A DNA stretch of 64,000 bases from Planctomycetota bacterium (GTDB taxonomy: Bacteria > Planctomycetota > Planctomycetia > Pirellulales > UBA1268), in NCBI GenBank assembly GCA_003669605.1, contig QWOP01000053.1, positions 62,001-126,000 on the forward strand, read 5' to 3'. A program made the position numbers and the translations under genes. The notes below the pieces were generated by a model. It was not told the DNA's origin. It searched no databases and saw nothing but the letters and a program-made list of their open reading frames with translations. Below are positions 35,639 to 47,860 of the stretch, one piece after another. The number at the start of each line of letters is the position of its first letter. The stretch's first letter is position 1.

Positions 35639-37495
35639 ATGCCCGTTTCATCGTCAGACTCCTCCGAAACTCCCTCCCTGCCGCGCCGCTCCGACATCCG
35701 CAACATCGCCATCATCGCCCACGTTGATCATGGCAAGACGACGCTCGTGGACTGCCTTCTGCGGCAAAGCGGCCAGTACCGCGCCAGCCAACTCTCTGGG
35801 GAGCGGATCCTCGACTCCAACGATTTGGAGCGCGAGCGTGGGATCACGATCCTCGCCAAGAACATCGCGGTGGAGTGGAAGGGGACGAAGATCAACATCA
35901 TCGACACCCCAGGACACGCCGACTTCGGCGGCGAGGTGGAGCGGGTGCTGCGGATGGCCGACGGGGCGCTGGTCCTTGTCGATGCCGCCGAGGGCTCGAT
36001 GCCGCAGACCCGCTTCGTCCTCTCCAAGGCCCTTGAAGCTCGGCTCCGCCCCGTGGTGGTCGTCAACAAAATCGATCGGCCAGACGCCCGCCCCCTCGAG
36101 GTGCTCGACGAGATCCTCGGCCTGTTCCTCGAACTCGGTGCCGATGACGAATTGGCTGATTTTCCGTTCGTGTATGCCTCGTCCCGGGAGGGTTTCGCGA
36201 CGCACGACGTCAACGTCCGTGAAGGGACGATGGAGCCGTTGCTGAACCTCGTGCTGGAGAAGATCCCCGGCCCCACGGTCGATCCTGATGCCCCTTTGCG
36301 GATGCTGGTGACGACGCTTGACTGGTCCGACTATGTCGGCCGGATCGCCATCGGACGACTCGATTCGGGACGGCTGATCAAGGGATCTCAGGTGGTCCGC
36401 TCGACGGCCGCTGGGACCTTCGTCGCGGCGAAGGTGGTGGGCCTGCAGGTGTTTGACAAGCTCGGGAAGATCGATGCCGAGGAGGCCACCGCCGGCGACA
36501 TCTGCGCCGTCAGCGGCTTGGATAACGTGGAGATCGGCGACACGATCTGCGACCCAGCCGACCCGCGCCCGCTGCCACGGCTGACGGTCGACGAGCCGAC
36601 GCTGAATATGGTGTTTGGGGTCAACTCCTCGCCGTTAGCGGGCCGCTCGGGAAAATATATGACCACCCGGCATCTTCGCGACCGACTCAACAAGGAACTG
36701 GAGAAGAACGTCGCCCTCCGTGTGGAACCGATCGAGGGCTCAGAGCAGTTTTCGGTCTCGGGCCGCGGGCTGCTCCACCTCTCGGTGCTCATCGAGACGA
36801 TTCGCCGCGAGGGCTACGAACTCTCGGTGGGGAAGCCGCGAGTGATTCTCCACCGCGAAGGCGACAAAGTCCTCGAGCCATTCGAGACGCTGGTCGTCGA
36901 GGTGCCGCACGACAAGCTCGGCCCCGTCATGGAACTGACCGGCTCCCGCCGCGGCCAGCTTGTTCACATGGGCAATCGCGGTGATTTCGCCCATGCGGTG
37001 TTCTCGATCCCGGCCCGCGGCCTGATCGGGCTGCGGACGAGGGTCCTCAATGCCACGCAGGGGACAGCGATCATGCACCATCGCTTCGAGGCCTGGCGCC
37101 CTCTCGAGGGGGATGTGGCAGGACGGGCCAACGGGGTGTTGATCTCGATGGTGCCTGGCAAGGCAGTGGCTTTCGGTCTCGATGGCCTGCAGGAACGGGC
37201 CGACCTGTTCATCGAGCCGGGCGACGAGGTGTACGAGGGAATGGTGGTGGGGGAAAACGCCCGCGGCGACGACATGACCGTCAACCCCACCCGGGAAAAG
37301 AAATTGACGAACATGCGTGCCAGCGGCAGCGACCGCAACATTCTCCTCAAGCCACCGCGGCGGATGTCGCTGGAGGAAGCCCTTGAGTACATCGAGGACG
37401 ACGAACTGGTGGAAGTGACGCCAGACGTCATCCGCCTGCGGAAGGTCCTTCTCTCCGAGCACGACCGGAAGCGGCACGGCCGACAGAAGTCATGA
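35639..37495 (+). CDS. typA: Translational GTPase TypA/BipA
   Basis: 618 residues. Elongation-factor-like GTPase that binds ribosomes and helps 50S assembly, especially in cold or stress. G1 AHVDHGKTT at 27-35, G2 region ERGITI, G3 DTPGHADF, G4 NKID, then domains II, III and V and the TypA-specific C-terminal domain with GRANGVLISM and LTNMRASGSDRN. Start ATG 35639. The stop codon (37493-37495) lies inside the first unit of a 10-base tandem repeat. The 217-base leader contains repeated GGATTCCCTCC segments (around 35485-35550). Confidence 0.97.
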   Translation: MPVSSSDSSETPSLPRRSDIRNIAIIAHVDHGKTTLVDCLLRQSGQYRASQLSGERILDSNDLERERGITILAKNIAVEWKGTKINIIDTPGHADFGGEVERVLRMADGALVLVDAAEGSMPQTRFVLSKALEARLRPVVVVNKIDRPDARPLEVLDEILGLFLELGADDELADFPFVYASSREGFATHDVNVREGTMEPLLNLVLEKIPGPTVDPDAPLRMLVTTLDWSDYVGRIAIGRLDSGRLIKGSQVVRSTAAGTFVAAKVVGLQVFDKLGKIDAEEATAGDICAVSGLDNVEIGDTICDPADPRPLPRLTVDEPTLNMVFGVNSSPLAGRSGKYMTTRHLRDRLNKELEKNVALRVEPIEGSEQFSVSGRGLLHLSVLIETIRREGYELSVGKPRVILHREGDKVLEPFETLVVEVPHDKLGPVMELTGSRRGQLVHMGNRGDFAHAVFSIPARGLIGLRTRVLNATQGTAIMHHRFEAWRPLEGDVAGRANGVLISMVPGKAVAFGLDGLQERADLFIEPGDEVYEGMVVGENARGDDMTVNPTREKKLTNMRASGSDRNILLKPPRRMSLEEALEYIEDDELVEVTPDVIRLRKVLLSEHDRKRHGRQKS

Positions 37496-37590
37496 GAAGT
37501 CATGAGAAGTCATGAGAAGTCATGAGAAGTCATGAGAAGTCATGAGAAGTCATGAGAAGGCATGAGAAGTCATGAGAAGGCATGAGAAGG
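37491..37590. repeat. Ten-fold tandem repeat of CATGAGAAGT/G
   Basis: Ten contiguous 10-base units, differing only in the last base (T or G), span the typA stop codon and the space before the convergent phosphodiesterase gene. The TGA of typA is part of unit 1. Perfect periodicity suggests recent slippage. Confidence 0.95.
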
Positions 37591-37618
37591 CACGCGGAGC
37601 CAGGAGTGCCTCCGCGGT

Positions 37619-38380
37619 TCAGAACAGGTAGACCTTCCCAGGCTGCACCATCTCCACCCCGGGGAGACCAAGTTCGTCGATCTCTCGGGCGATCTGGGCC
37701 GCAAACCGGGCCTTGCGGTGGACGACGATGGTCCGCACTCCAGCCGGCAACTTGGCCACCTCGGCCCCGAACGTGCGGGTACTGAGGTGGCCGGTGAGCG
37801 TCGCCAGGTCACTGTGGGTGGAAGGGAAACTCGCCTCCAGGAAGACTGCCCGGAGGTGGGGGATGGTGGCAAGGTGCCGCCACAAGTCCTCGGTGGGGCC
37901 GGTATCCGAGGGAAAGGCGACGGCCGAGACGCCGTCATCCACCACCAACCCCAACGTATCGACCCCGTGGGAAACCGGCACCGGCGTGACCGTGAGGCCG
38001 GCCCGTTGCACCGGCACCATCGACTCCAGAACCGTCGTCCGCAGGAAGGCGTTTTCGGGACTCGAGAGCTGCAGGAAGTCGGGCCAGACGCGGCCGTTGA
38101 AGACGTCACCGTGGAGGAACTCCAGCACATCAGCGGCAGCGAGCACCTCCACGCAGTCCGGCCCTGGAGAGTAGACATTTTCCAGGAAGATCGGCAGTGA
38201 CGCGATGTGATCGAGGTGTTCATGGGTCAGGAAGACGTGGCGTATCCGCTGCTGCCGCTCGAGATCAGCGAGCAGCCCGATCGCCCCGGCATCAATCACG
38301 ACAGCGTCGTTGACAAGGAACGACACGAGGTACTGCGTGTCGGCAGCGGGAATGCTCGAGGGAAGGAGTTCGATCCGCAT
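37619..38380 (-). CDS. Class II 3',5'-cyclic-nucleotide phosphodiesterase-like metallo-hydrolase
   Basis: 253 residues, metallo-beta-lactamase fold. Metal-binding THEHLDHIASLP, a later His in PVSHGVD, FPSDTGP (Asp) and VVHRKARF (His) give the set seen in PDEase class II enzymes (yeast PDE1, Vibrio CpdP), which hydrolyse cAMP or cGMP. Start: ATG 38380 gives the usual MRIELLPSS N-terminus; a GTG at 38422 would overlap the channel stop as GTGA. It directly follows a cyclic-nucleotide-binding MscS gene on the same strand, which strongly supports a cyclic-nucleotide role. Confidence 0.8.
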   Translation of the reverse strand: MRIELLPSSIPAADTQYLVSFLVNDAVVIDAGAIGLLADLERQQRIRHVFLTHEHLDHIASLPIFLENVYSPGPDCVEVLAAADVLEFLHGDVFNGRVWPDFLQLSSPENAFLRTTVLESMVPVQRAGLTVTPVPVSHGVDTLGLVVDDGVSAVAFPSDTGPTEDLWRHLATIPHLRAVFLEASFPSTHSDLATLTGHLSTRTFGAEVAKLPAGVRTIVVHRKARFAAQIAREIDELGLPGVEMVQPGKVYLF

Positions 38381-38418
38381 CAGTCGGCTGCTCCAGGCGG
38401 CGCGGATGGCGCCGCGGG

Positions 38419-39996
38419 TCACATGGCAAAGAAATCCTTGATTCGCTGAAACAGGTCCGGAGGCGGGGGCTCGGGGGGCCTGCCTCCAACGGCGATAGCG
38501 CGCGACCGCTCCTCCAGCCTGACTTTGAGCAAGGCACCGATCTTATTGACGAGGCTCGGCTCCGCCTCCAGCACCCGGCGAAACGACTGTTTATCGATCT
38601 CAAGCACATGCGCCTCGCCGATGGCAGTCACCGTCGCCGAGCGGGAGGCCCCGGTCATCAGCGACATCTCGCCGAAGAAGTCGCCGGGGCCGAGTCGGGC
38701 AAGCGACACCGGTCCAACGGAATCCTCCACCGTCGTCACCTCCACACTGCCCTCGAGGATCACGAACATGCTCTCGCCAGCATCCCCCTGGCGGATCAAC
38801 TGTTCACCAGCAGCAAACCGCAACTCGCGGCTTTCCCCAGCGAGCCGACGGAGCTGGTTCTCCTCCAAGACTTTGAGCAAATGGACCCGTTCAAGCGACA
38901 TTACCCGCCGAGACACGGCCAATTCTTCTGTTTCTAGTGTGGCAGGAGGGGGCAGCTCGGTGAGGCGAATCGCCTGCGTGGCCACGGGAATTTCAATGCC
39001 GTTGCGGGCCAGGGCGAACCAGATCCGGTCCCGTGCCATGCCGTCCACCCGGTCGCGCTTGTCGAAATCGGAGGTGAACAGCCGCACCCAGTGTTCGACA
39101 CCACGCTCAGTAAAATTGCTGGTCACGACCGACGGCATGGGGCTCTCAAGGACCCCGAAACTCCCACGAATGGCAGCGAGGATGATTCGCTGCACCCGTT
39201 GCGGCGACACGTCATAGGGGGTGACGACGAAGATCGACCGCCGCGACCAGGTGTCGGGCTTGGTGAAGTTGCGGATCGACGCTTGGGCAAGTTGTCCGTT
39301 GGGGATGATCACGGTTGCCTCGTCGAGCGTGATCACCTTGGTGGCCCGCCAATTGATCTCCACGACCCGGCCGATGTGGGCCTGGATGGTGTCGTACTGG
39401 ATCCAGTCGCCGATCTCGAAGGGGTGCTCGGCATGGATCGCCAGTCCGGCAATCACGTTCCCGAGCGTGTCCTTGAGAGCAAAGCCGACGACGGCCGTGA
39501 TCAGCGCCGACCCCGTCACCAGTTCACCGGCATTAATGCCGGCATCCCAGAGCACGATCAACAGCGCCAGTGCGAGCATCAGCCAGAGGAGGATATCGAG
39601 AAAGATCTTCGGCATCCGCCGGGCGACCCGCTCCCAGCCGGACACGGCCGCCAGCAGCAGCGCCGACTGAAGTAAAGAAGCCACCAGGAAAAAGCGGAGG
39701 ACGTGGTGGGAATGCTGGGAGACGCGCTTGGTCCCCTCGCCGATCGGACCCTCGATGTCGGCGGCGAACGTGTCCGGAGGGAAGACGAGGTTGGCGATCA
39801 GCGGAAGGACTGTCAGGCACAACAGCGCGATCGGCCCCCACGCCAGTCGCCGCCGCCCGCGGGGTGCGGAAATGAGATAGAGCGCGAGTGCCAGCAGCGC
39901 CAGGAGCAACTCCCGCAACGCCATGAAGTCGGTCCAGCCGGTGAGGCCGTTGATCAACTGATTGAAGTCGTTGCTGATGGCGAGGACTGGAAACAT
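38419..39996 (-). CDS. MscS-family channel with C-terminal cyclic-nucleotide-binding domain
   Basis: 525 residues. N-terminal membrane helices (about 15-165, including the pore helix region AGELVTGSALITAVVGFALKD), an MscS beta domain (VIIPNGQLAQASIRNFT, about 235-250), and a cNMP-binding domain (about 375-490) whose phosphate-binding cassette FGEMSLMTGASRSATVTA has the conserved Glu and Arg. Bacterial cyclic-nucleotide-gated MscS-like (bCNG) channels have this plan and are generally weak in mechanosensing. Inner-membrane. Translationally close or coupled to the phosphodiesterase gene downstream; ATG 39996. Confidence 0.93.
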   Translation of the reverse strand: MFPVLAISNDFNQLINGLTGWTDFMALRELLLALLALALYLISAPRGRRRLAWGPIALLCLTVLPLIANLVFPPDTFAADIEGPIGEGTKRVSQHSHHVLRFFLVASLLQSALLLAAVSGWERVARRMPKIFLDILLWLMLALALLIVLWDAGINAGELVTGSALITAVVGFALKDTLGNVIAGLAIHAEHPFEIGDWIQYDTIQAHIGRVVEINWRATKVITLDEATVIIPNGQLAQASIRNFTKPDTWSRRSIFVVTPYDVSPQRVQRIILAAIRGSFGVLESPMPSVVTSNFTERGVEHWVRLFTSDFDKRDRVDGMARDRIWFALARNGIEIPVATQAIRLTELPPPATLETEELAVSRRVMSLERVHLLKVLEENQLRRLAGESRELRFAAGEQLIRQGDAGESMFVILEGSVEVTTVEDSVGPVSLARLGPGDFFGEMSLMTGASRSATVTAIGEAHVLEIDKQSFRRVLEAEPSLVNKIGALLKVRLEERSRAIAVGGRPPEPPPPDLFQRIKDFFAM

Positions 39997-40389
39997 GGGC
40001 GGCCGGCTCCGGCTCGCTCAGCAGTCAATTCCCCCACCCGCGGCAACCCAGAGGTCGACACGGTCCGCAGGGGCCAACTGGTGCGCTAGGATGAAAGGGA
40101 AGGGATGAAAGGGAAGGGGTGCGGAAAGACGCTTGTGACGAGGCGGACGGAAAAGGATGCCGCTGGTTGCGGGATCGGCGCATGGCCGTCCACGCCGGCA
40201 TCCAGCAAGTTTGCAATTGTGGGAAGAGCGGGCCAAACGAGCAACCAAACCCTCATTTGGGGCCGATTCCCGACCGCTGGCAGGGGATGAGGCAGGCCTA
40301 TCGATCACCCCGGGATGGACTTATCTGCTCCGATTCGCTACCCTCTTAGACTTCACCAACGACTTTTTTCAGGGATTCCTAGGACACGT
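39997..40389. other. 393-base intergenic region upstream of rpsU
   Basis: Divergent promoter region for the MscS-cNMP gene and rpsU. Contains a 14-base direct repeat (GATGAAAGGGAAGG twice, about 40091-40118). No gene seen. Confidence 0.5.
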
Positions 40390-40584
40390 ATGGTCAAGCT
40401 CACGGTACGCGAACGGGAGAGCATCCAGGAAGCGGTTCGCCGCTTCCGCAAACTTGTCGAGCGGAGTGGCATCAAAAAGGAGATGCGCCGCCGCGAGTTC
40501 TTCGAGAAGCCCAGCGAGACCCAGCGTCGTGCCCGCCTCCGCGCTGAACGTCGCACGAAGCGAAATCGGCTCCTCGGGGTCTGA
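40390..40584 (+). CDS. rpsU: 30S ribosomal protein bS21
   Basis: 64 residues: [19 protein letters not shown], then [15 protein letters not shown] and a basic C-terminus. Needed for initiation on the 30S platform. Start ATG 40390 has AGGA upstream. Single gene, followed by a hairpin at 40621. Confidence 0.95.
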
Positions 40585-40620
40585 TCGTCTGCTGGTCCTG
40601 ATCATCTGCTCGACCCAAAG

Positions 40621-40646
40621 TCCGACGGGGTTTCTCTCCCCTCGGA
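40621..40646 (+). terminator. Hairpin after rpsU
   Basis: TCCGA-c-GGGG paired with CCCC-TCGGA around a 7-base pyrimidine loop, 36 bases past the rpsU stop. One bulged base; no U-tract. Confidence 0.45.
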
Positions 40647-40776
40647 TTGCTCAGGCCGGGAACGCCGGCCGCGGCCATCGCTCTGTCGGGCTTTCGCCGG
40701 CTGGGCATGGACGCGGGGGGTGAGCCTGTCTGTCTGCGGTGGCGGTTGACTGCCGGCGCTCTCCCCGGATGGGGAT

Positions 40777-41736
40777 TCAGCCTCGCCGGGCCTCCTCCCA
40801 ATCCAGCGCGATATCGAGCCACGGAGCACCGTGCGTTGGCCACCCGCTGCTCACCCGATCGATGCCGGTGGCGGCGATGGCGGCCACGGTTTCCACCGAA
40901 ATGCCTCCTGAGGCTTCGAGGATCACGCGGCTCTTGAGCCGATTGCGGATGGCGACCCCTTCGGCGAGCATCGCCGTCGGCATGTTGTCGAGGAGGATGA
41001 TGTCCGGTTCCGCTGCCAGCACTGCGGGGAGGTGGTGGAGCGAATCGAGTTCGATTTCCACCACCATCTCGGCCGCCCGCTGGGCCGAGAACGTCGCCCC
41101 GATGAACTGCCGGGCCTGCCGGGCCGCGGTGGCTGGATCGCCGCCGGCGGAGGCGACCGCCGCCAGATGGTTGTCTTTGATGAGGATGGCGTCGTAGAGC
41201 CCGAGGCGGTGCGTCCAGCCCCCCCCGGCCCGCGCGGCGTACTTATCGAGGAGTCGCAAGCCGGGCACCGTTTTGCGGGTGTCGTAAACGCGGCAGGGGG
41301 TGCCGGCAACCGCGTCGACCAGACGGCGGGTGGCGGTGGCCACCCCCGACATCCTTCCCAAGACGTTGAGCAACGTTCGTTCGGCGGTGAGCACGCTTCG
41401 CGTCGGGCCTGCCAGCCTGGCCACCACAGCCCCCGCGGCGACAGCCTGGCCATCCTCCGTCAGCGGTTGCCACTCCAAGCGGGGATCCGTGACGCCGGCG
41501 ACCACCGCCGCCGCCGGCAACCCGGCGATCACACCCCCTCGACGGGCCACCACATCGAGGACTGCCGTGGCTCCGGCGGAGACCAGTGCCACGCTCGTCC
41601 AGTCACACTCATGCCCCAGATCCTCCTCCAGCCAGACCACGGCACGGTCCGCGACGTACCCCACGAGATAGTCGCTCCATGCCAGGCGGCGGTGGTCACG
41701 GAGGGCTGTCGGCGGGCTGGGGGAACGATCGGCCAT
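40777..41736 (-). CDS. nadC: Nicotinate-nucleotide pyrophosphorylase (carboxylating)
   Basis: 319 residues from ATG 41736 (GGAG six bases upstream). Converts quinolinate and PRPP to nicotinate mononucleotide in NAD synthesis. Conserved ERTLLNVLGRMSGVATATR, YDTRKTVPGLRLLDKYA, HRLGLYDAILIKDNH, EIELDSL and LEASGGIS are all present. Slight variants: GGGWTHR where GGGxNHR is usual, and SGWPTHGAPWLD where GALTHS is usual. Divergent from the HhH-uvrB pair with an 83-base spacer. Confidence 0.93.
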   Translation of the reverse strand: MADRSPSPPTALRDHRRLAWSDYLVGYVADRAVVWLEEDLGHECDWTSVALVSAGATAVLDVVARRGGVIAGLPAAAVVAGVTDPRLEWQPLTEDGQAVAAGAVVARLAGPTRSVLTAERTLLNVLGRMSGVATATRRLVDAVAGTPCRVYDTRKTVPGLRLLDKYAARAGGGWTHRLGLYDAILIKDNHLAAVASAGGDPATAARQARQFIGATFSAQRAAEMVVEIELDSLHHLPAVLAAEPDIILLDNMPTAMLAEGVAIRNRLKSRVILEASGGISVETVAAIAATGIDRVSSGWPTHGAPWLDIALDWEEARRG

Positions 41737-46663: not shown

Positions 46664-47860
46664 ATGGATCCATCCCCTTCCGATCCACTCTCTGCCACTC
46701 CCACGGCCACGCGCTCTGGCGGTGTTTCGGGGGGTGTTTCCTGGTCCGCCACGCCGTCGCCACGCGGCTTCACCCTCCCGGCCGTCTCCGAACGGCACCG
46801 GGTGATGCTCATCGATGACCAGAAGTTGATCGGCACCGCTGTACAGAAGATGCTCGCCGATCAGGACGACATCGACTTCCGCTTCTGCCAGAAGCCCGAC
46901 GAGGCGGAGGCGATTGCCGCTGCCTTTCGGCCCACGGTCATCCTCCAGGATCTGGTGATGCCAGGCGTCGACGGTCTCGACATGGTGCGGAACTTCCGCA
47001 CCATCGATGGCACGCGACAGGTGCCGATCATCGTCCTTTCGGCACAGGAGGAGGCGGTCGTCAAGGCCCAGCTGTTCGAGGCTGGGGCGAACGACTACCT
47101 CGTCAAACTCCCAGACCGCATCGAACTGATCGCCCGGATCCGGGTCCACTCCGATGCCTTTCGGCGGTTGCTCGAGCGGAATGCGGCCTTCGCCGCTCTG
47201 GAGCAGTCGCTGGCCGACCTGAAACGGGAGCAGGAGAAATCAGAACGCCTCCTTCTCAACATCCTTCCTGCCAAGATCGTGGAGAAACTCAAGGACGGGC
47301 AGGGGACAATCGCCGAGAGTTTCGCCTCGGCATCTGTCCTGTTTGCCGACCTCTGCGGCTTCACCGAATTCTCCCAAACCGTCGATCCGCAGAACCTCGT
47401 CAGCATGCTCGACGAGATCTTCTCCACCTTCGACCACCTCGCCGCCGCGCACGGCATCGAAAAGATCAAGACCATCGGCGATGCCTACATGGCCGTGGCC
47501 GGCCTGCCGGTGCCCCGCGACGACCACGCCGAGGCGATGGCCGCAATGGCACTGGGAATGCTTGAGGGCTTCCGCGGCGTGATGAAGGGACGCGGACTGT
47601 CGATGCAGGTGCGGATCGGCATCCACTCCGGCCCCGTCGTCGCCGGGGTCATCGGCCGGCACAAATTCATCTACGACCTCTGGGGCGACACGGTCAACAT
47701 GGCCAGCCGGATGGAATCGCACGGCGAACCCTCCCGGGTCCATATCTCCCAGGCCACACGGGATTTGCTCCAAGGAAAATTCCGCTTCGCCGATCGGGGG
47801 CCGATCCAGGTGAAGGGGAAAGGAATGATGCACACCTCGTTTTTGCTGGGGCGTGAGTGA
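46664..47860 (+). CDS. Response-regulator-coupled class III adenylyl cyclase
   Basis: 398 residues. Receiver domain (about 46-165) with phospho-acceptor Asp96 (ILQDLVMPG), a coiled-coil linker (about 175-205, QSLADLKREQEKSERLLLNI), then a class III cyclase domain (about 220-395). Metal ligands in LFADLCGFTEF and TIGDAYM; purine-specifying residues are Lys (EKIKTIGD) and Asp (YDLWGDTVN), the pattern of adenylyl, not guanylyl, cyclases; the transition-state Asn and Arg are in NMASRM. So it should make cAMP under phosphorylation control. Start uncertain: ATG 46664 lacks a clear binding site and the first 45 residues are low complexity; ATG 46805 region is an alternative. No kinase gene adjacent. 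Confidence 0.88.
   Translation: MDPSPSDPLSATPTATRSGGVSGGVSWSATPSPRGFTLPAVSERHRVMLIDDQKLIGTAVQKMLADQDDIDFRFCQKPDEAEAIAAAFRPTVILQDLVMPGVDGLDMVRNFRTIDGTRQVPIIVLSAQEEAVVKAQLFEAGANDYLVKLPDRIELIARIRVHSDAFRRLLERNAAFAALEQSLADLKREQEKSERLLLNILPAKIVEKLKDGQGTIAESFASASVLFADLCGFTEFSQTVDPQNLVSMLDEIFSTFDHLAAAHGIEKIKTIGDAYMAVAGLPVPRDDHAEAMAAMALGMLEGFRGVMKGRGLSMQVRIGIHSGPVVAGVIGRHKFIYDLWGDTVNMASRMESHGEPSRVHISQATRDLLQGKFRFADRGPIQVKGKGMMHTSFLLGRE

Follow-up and report, generated by a model that had tools for sequence, protein, structure and literature searches.

The window analysed here, a stretch of 64,000 nucleotides from a Planctomycetota bacterium, carries on its reverse strand a gene for an MscS-type channel with a cyclic-nucleotide-binding (cNMP) domain, directly followed by one for a predicted cyclic-nucleotide phosphodiesterase. 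The features of the locus are shown in Table 1.

Table 1. Features of the channel-hydrolase locus and the nearby cyclase gene (window positions).
Feature	Position	Strand	Evidence
Class-II-type cyclic-nucleotide phosphodiesterase (predicted; metallo-beta-lactamase fold), 253 aa from conserved ATG	37619..38380	-	PF02112, PF12706, model, structure comparison
FNGRVWPD motif, hydrolase residues 94-101	38078..38101	-	Common to yeast PDE1 (FNDLIWPD); alignment to 4ojv
Metal-binding motif HEHLDH, hydrolase residues 53-58	38207..38224	-	H53, H55, D57, H58 invariant in 36 rows of A2
Gap from channel stop to hydrolase ATG, 38 nt; GGAG 10 nt 5' of ATG	38381..38418	-	Sequence
MscS-type channel with C-terminal cyclic-nucleotide-binding domain (bCNG-type), 525 aa	38419..39996	-	Pfam, PDB sequence matches, AlphaFold + Foldseek
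Channel cyclic-nucleotide-binding domain PF00027, residues 392-478	38563..38823	-	Pfam, 86.7 bits
Channel Arg452	38641-38643	-	Alignment
Channel Glu443	38668-38670	-	Alignment
Channel MscS beta-domain PF00924, residues 176-246	39259..39471	-	Pfam, 69.6 bits
Receiver domain + class III cyclase	46664..47860	+	PF00072, 71.4 bits; PF00211, 210.7 bits; ORF open from 46556

Both PF00924 and the MscS C-terminal domain (PF21082, 30.3 bits) score above the Pfam cut-off in the channel. The phosphate-binding cassette of its cNMP domain, FGEMSLMTGASRSATV, contains Glu443 and Arg452; in the channel alignment A3 the Glu is invariant and the Arg is kept in 23 of 24 rows, the exception (L086) having Cys. Sequence matches in the PDB are to MscK/MscS and to PKA/PKG regulatory domains, and also include SthK chains. 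The AlphaFold model (pLDDT 79.1) has a pTM of 0.40, a low value that says little on assembly, and Foldseek matches it to MscK/MscS and to PKA RI CNB-B. With MscS beta and C-terminal domains and a C-terminal cNMP domain that has both cassette residues, the protein is a member of the bCNG channels, and its control by cyclic nucleotides is predicted. The sequence-only reading had placed an MscS channel with a complete cNMP domain here, and the Pfam matches, the Glu and Arg, and the coordinates all bear this out.

The hydrolase reading frame as listed spans 37619-38422 on the reverse strand and begins at a GTG at 38422, overlapping the channel stop by 4 nt. We rejected this start, as translation in the relatives starts from the ATG at 38378-38380, an invariant Met in alignment A1. 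The earlier description of the two genes as lying within a few bases of each other or overlapping is thus right in that the hydrolase is directly behind the channel, although from the conserved ATG there is a 38-nt gap and no overlap. A scan of 37300-41000 turned up no sigma-70-like promoter to define the transcript, a point against reading the two genes as one unit. Between typA and the hydrolase gene, at the typA end, lies a 10-bp repeat (AGAAGTCATG) in ten and a half copies (37485-37589).

The hydrolase scores 40.5 bits with PF02112 (PDEase_II; cut-off 23.7), with the best stretch covering only residues 56-122, and 43.8 bits with PF12706 (cut-off 27); the PF00753 score is 25.1 bits. That a class II phosphodiesterase-like hydrolase lies right behind the channel, as first proposed, agrees with these matches. 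Alignment A2, which has 36 rows down to 31% identity, shows no variation at H53, H55, D57, H58, H138 and H221 and almost none at D159; the FN, R, W, P and D of FNGRVWPD are likewise invariant or nearly so. An HXHLDH motif is present in the window protein; some relatives in A2 carry another residue at the Leu position, so the division between typical and atypical class II enzymes is not sharp here. PMC9293780 gives HXHLDH as the typical class II motif and [T/S]HXHXDH as that of an atypical group (Rv1339/YhfI/CpdA, PF12706), and the window's THEHLDH is compatible with both of the patterns set out there. The protein resembles class-II phosphodiesterases such as yeast PDE1 and Vibrio CpdP (PF02112) in its HEHLDH motif and metallo-beta-lactamase fold, and PDE1 in its FN..WPD; it differs in being shorter than PDE1 (253 aa) and in scoring on both PF02112 and PF12706.

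Structure comparison places the hydrolase near several enzymes at once. Ranked by Z against solved structures (VIA), the AlphaFold model (pLDDT 95.6) has yeast PDE1 (4ojv) in the first row (Z 25.6, rmsd 2.3, 243 residues aligned, 25% identity), with 1zkp, RNase Z (25.0-24.1) and YhfI (24.7) within about 1 Z of it and PhnP at 23.0; Foldseek and VIA together do not separate PDE1 from RNase Z. These close fits, and a PF12706 score slightly above that of PF02112, are what would be expected if the protein were an RNase Z-, PhnP- or YhfI-like enzyme acting on another ester. By sequence, though, the two best PDB matches are PhnP and PDE1, with 25% identity to each, whereas the rows of bacterial RNase Z and of YhfI reach 15-21%, and the FN..WPD motif common to PDE1 is kept in the clade. 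Cyclase genes are also neighbours in several lineages (see below), and YhfI is itself counted among the atypical class-II phosphodiesterases in PMC9293780. We thus regard action on another ester as unlikely.

A search with each protein of 59 genomes, 36 of them in the window's family, shows that the pair is well kept. In the family the hydrolase ortholog is present in 32 genomes and the channel ortholog in 29, all 29 having both, so that no genome has the channel alone; three have the hydrolase without the channel (G019, G028, G030) and four have neither (G009, 67% complete; G013, G014, G020). The expectation that the pair would be kept outside this genome is therefore supported by 29 of 36 family genomes, and also by clusters in further lineages. 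When the named genomes were scanned with the hydrolase alignment, 80 loci were found. A channel gene on the same strand precedes the hydrolase in 44 of them, 17-152 bp away in 43 cases; in the other (L073) the two are separated by the gene for a receiver-domain class III cyclase. NadC is seen upstream in 38 of the 44 loci and TypA downstream in 39, the remainder being at contig ends or not seen. Because the whole block NadC-channel-hydrolase-TypA is conserved, adjacency within the family is partly inherited gene order, and we rejected family synteny as independent proof of a link.

The window's genome (84% complete) has one PF02112 match, three PF00027 domains and three PF00924 domains. The cNMP domains are those of the window channel, of a glucose-6-phosphate dehydrogenase fusion, and of a second MscS channel on contig C84. 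In the fusion (L002:13-1842) the cNMP domain is C-terminal and its cassette intact, making it one of two intact cNMP domains in the genome. Adjacency of channel and hydrolase is not likely to be chance, since there is a single PF02112 gene and it directly adjoins one of just two genes with an intact cNMP domain. The hydrolase is the only gene of its clade found in this genome, so a cell-wide role is as possible as a local reset. It could accordingly be the cell's general cyclic-nucleotide phosphodiesterase, serving all users of cAMP, with its place behind the channel simply inherited and no special tie between them. Its singularity in the genome fits such a role, as do the conserved flanking NadC and TypA and the occurrence of the hydrolase without the channel, both in the three family genomes and at most loci outside the family; at L077, L078 and L080 the channel is absent though the hydrolase is retained, and the hydrolase thus has other uses. 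In contrast, none of the 29 family genomes with a channel is without the hydrolase, the gap between the two stays short as the flanks open (above 500 bp in one of 44 loci, against seven of 39 on the TypA side), and channel-hydrolase clusters recur in other gene orders. We give a general role close to an even chance, albeit slightly under it.

Four class III cyclases are encoded in the window's genome, including the one within the window, which lies 6.7 kb from the channel and was overlooked in the sequence-only reading. In alignment it keeps D, D, K, D, N and R, the full class III adenylyl cyclase set, which we take to be the two metal Asp, the Lys/Asp purine pair of the adenylyl type, the Asn and the Arg. 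The cyclase of adenylyl type, the nucleotide-binding channel and the predicted phosphodiesterase thus share a stretch of about 10 kb. Relatives of this cyclase adjoin the hydrolase in L096, L097 and L101, and the receiver-domain cyclase is likely the best local candidate for the source of the ligand.

This combination resembles Pycsar, in which a class III cyclase accompanies a cNMP-binding membrane or TIR effector. A defence unit of that kind would have the nucleotide-bound channel as membrane effector and the hydrolase as off-switch, and PADLOC shows similarity between the channel's nucleotide domain and Pycsar TIR effectors, and between the cyclase and PycC. The PADLOC matches are limited to the common cNMP and cyclase domains, however, and the hydrolase has none. 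Unlike Pycsar, the window set has an added hydrolase and a chromosomal housekeeping context, with the block in stable gene order throughout the family, and its cyclase has adenylate-type residues. No PycC-like cyclase lies directly next to the effector, the cyclase being at the distance given above. Given the domain-only matches and the housekeeping context, we rejected Pycsar-type defence as the main reading and consider it highly improbable.

To look beyond the family, the 4-kb flanks of a further 84 matches of the class belonging to the hydrolase clade (162-375 bits; L239 among them is a broken copy) were compared with those of 36 other metallo-hydrolases that the same profile had picked up (68-83 bits). 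Cyclases were sought, in the controls as well, with a model made from eight sequences that include some neighbours of this hydrolase. A cyclase, cNMP or MscS-cNMP gene lies within 3 kb at 27 of the 84 hydrolase-clade loci and at none of the 36 controls (Fisher p 2e-5, a value that is too kind as related genomes are counted separately). Of the 27, 13 have a cNMP gene only, ten a cyclase only, and four both a cyclase and an MscS-cNMP channel. The neighbouring cyclases are of varied architecture: FHA with cyclase (L112, L198), receiver with cyclase (L097, L101, L073), HisKA-receiver-cyclase (L091, L120), HAMP-cyclase (L094) and CHASE2-cyclase (L125). Because relatives of the hydrolase adjoin cyclases and cNMP-binding proteins, a cyclic nucleotide as substrate gains indirect support. 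At the other 57 loci the 3 kb around the hydrolase is free of cyclic-nucleotide genes, which counts against our preferred reading of channel and hydrolase as one unit.

In the FHA-type cyclases beside the hydrolase (L112:6174-7943, L160:4829-6598, L198:4791-6650), Asp and Gly replace the purine-specifying Lys/Asp, and these residues do not clearly point to cAMP or cGMP as the product. A protein resembling type II NADH dehydrogenase and carrying a cNMP domain (L217:2039-3694, Pfam) is encoded on the opposite strand, some 1.5 kb away from the hydrolase, with similar cNMP matches at the same place in L220-L222, L225-L227 and L230. Directly upstream of the hydrolase, L117:5242-7851 has cNMP-binding domain matches (Pfam) together with 4Fe-4S motifs, and the protein upstream of the hydrolase at L179:4918-7527 opens with the same residues.

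Channel and hydrolase are found together in three further lineages, in each case in a gene order that differs from that of the window's family and mostly with a cyclase present. In genus g135 (L198, L202, L205, L208) the hydrolase is followed by an FHA-cyclase and then by an MscS-cNMP channel on the opposite strand (Pfam: L198, L205). In family f83 (L322, L323) channel and hydrolase are divergent and 415-430 bp apart, and L322 also has a CHASE2-type cyclase. The third comprises L124, a Deltaproteobacteria MAG, and L125 (UBA2219), where an M48 peptidase, a CHASE2-cyclase and the channel are consecutive and the hydrolase flanks this trio, on opposite sides in the two loci. In a tree of 54 channels, those of the window's family (f1), g135, f83 and L124/L125 fall in separate places. 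Forcing all 20 hydrolase-linked channel rows together is rejected (p 1e-128), as is joining f1 with g135 (p 8e-7); joining L124/L125 with f83 is rejected weakly (p 0.039). The channel tree is less sure on account of long branches, L322/L323 among them. As the tree and the constraint tests place the hydrolase-linked channels apart, we claim at least three separate assemblies of channel-hydrolase sets from these sequences. A count of four was cut back, given the weak rejection for L124/L125 with f83 and their common M48-CHASE2-cyclase-channel context. Similar sets, often including a cyclase, thus seem to have formed several times. Among 25 MscS-cNMP channels elsewhere in the phylum, a member of the hydrolase clade is nearby in two and a cyclase in five, which counts against the preferred reading.

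The M48 peptidase and CHASE2-type cyclase recur beside MscS-cNMP channels at Planctomycetota loci as well as at L124/L125. An M48 match lies by such a channel in L124, L125, L307, L322, L323 and L325, and a cyclase match in L124, L125, L307, L308, L322, L325 and L327, with L323 lacking one. L325 has a more distant hydrolase (26% identity, E 2e-7) between cyclase and channel.

The window's family also has a second MscS channel, just behind a cyclase (L038:2070-5873, on contig C84 of the window's genome; L333, L335, L337-L340, L342-L346), with 105-361 bp between the domain matches in 11 loci. This cyclase has lost the second metal Asp and the Asn in all 12 copies examined, and the channel has lost the cNMP-domain Arg in all seven examined, including that on C84. 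To judge by these residues, the retained pair seems mute on both sides, and it may now be a directly coupled regulator.

Given the genes and domains themselves, the intact binding and metal motifs, the conserved pair and the recurrent clustering with cyclases, all directly observed, we consider it probable that the window encodes an MscS channel controlled by a cyclic nucleotide, probably cAMP, and made together with an enzyme that removes its ligand. The two proteins, presumably co-transcribed, would form a small second-messenger unit. Binding of cAMP, or less likely cGMP, to the cNMP domain would shift gating in one direction or the other, and the hydrolase, translated just behind the channel, would hydrolyse the same nucleotide and so end or limit the response. 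Class III cyclases are the probable source of the ligand; if the receiver-domain cyclase 6.7 kb away is one of them, a phosphorelay could drive the channel.

Tension may still be what mainly opens the channel. Its MscS core is intact, and a bCNG channel has reportedly been seen to gate under tension in work by Malcolm of 2012. The protein would then be an osmotic safety valve that the nucleotide domain tunes or keeps shut, with the hydrolase setting the tuning. The intact cassette in 23 of 24 relatives argues that the nucleotide matters, and while we lean against a valve of this kind, it is a real possibility.

The bCNG channels are said to belong to the MscS superfamily, in work by Caldwell of 2010. 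The window channel is like them in having an MscS core followed by a C-terminal cNMP-binding domain, and what sets it apart from those known is its phosphodiesterase partner and, among its relatives, the cyclase partners. Prokaryotic CNG channels of the SthK/MloK1 type are membrane channels with a cytoplasmic cNMP-binding domain and a K+-channel-type pore; the window channel shares the pairing of membrane pore and cytoplasmic cNMP-binding domain, but its pore is MscS-type. A literature search that missed most subscription journals found no work joining MscS-cNMP channels with class-II phosphodiesterases or cyclases. A bCNG-type channel and a class-II-type hydrolase are each known, and what appears to be new is their pairing, with cyclases in relatives.

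The broader proposal is that Planctomycetota and some other bacteria have an MscS circuit dedicated to gating by a second messenger, whose genes for cyclase, channel and class-II phosphodiesterase are clustered, and that such circuits arose on at least three occasions from different channel lineages. It further holds that one family keeps a copy mute on both sides, the cyclase without catalytic residues and the adjoining channel without its binding Arg. We regard the case for this proposal as evenly balanced. No native ligand source or physiological role is, to our knowledge, established for the bCNG channels, and clusters that join maker, eraser and channel present a direct, testable circuit in which to ask whether a bacterium gates an MscS-type pore by cAMP. 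The same circuit could also show what passes the pore and which stimulus, phosphorelay or CHASE2 sensing, drives it, and such clusters would lend themselves naturally as tools for releasing solutes under the control of cAMP.
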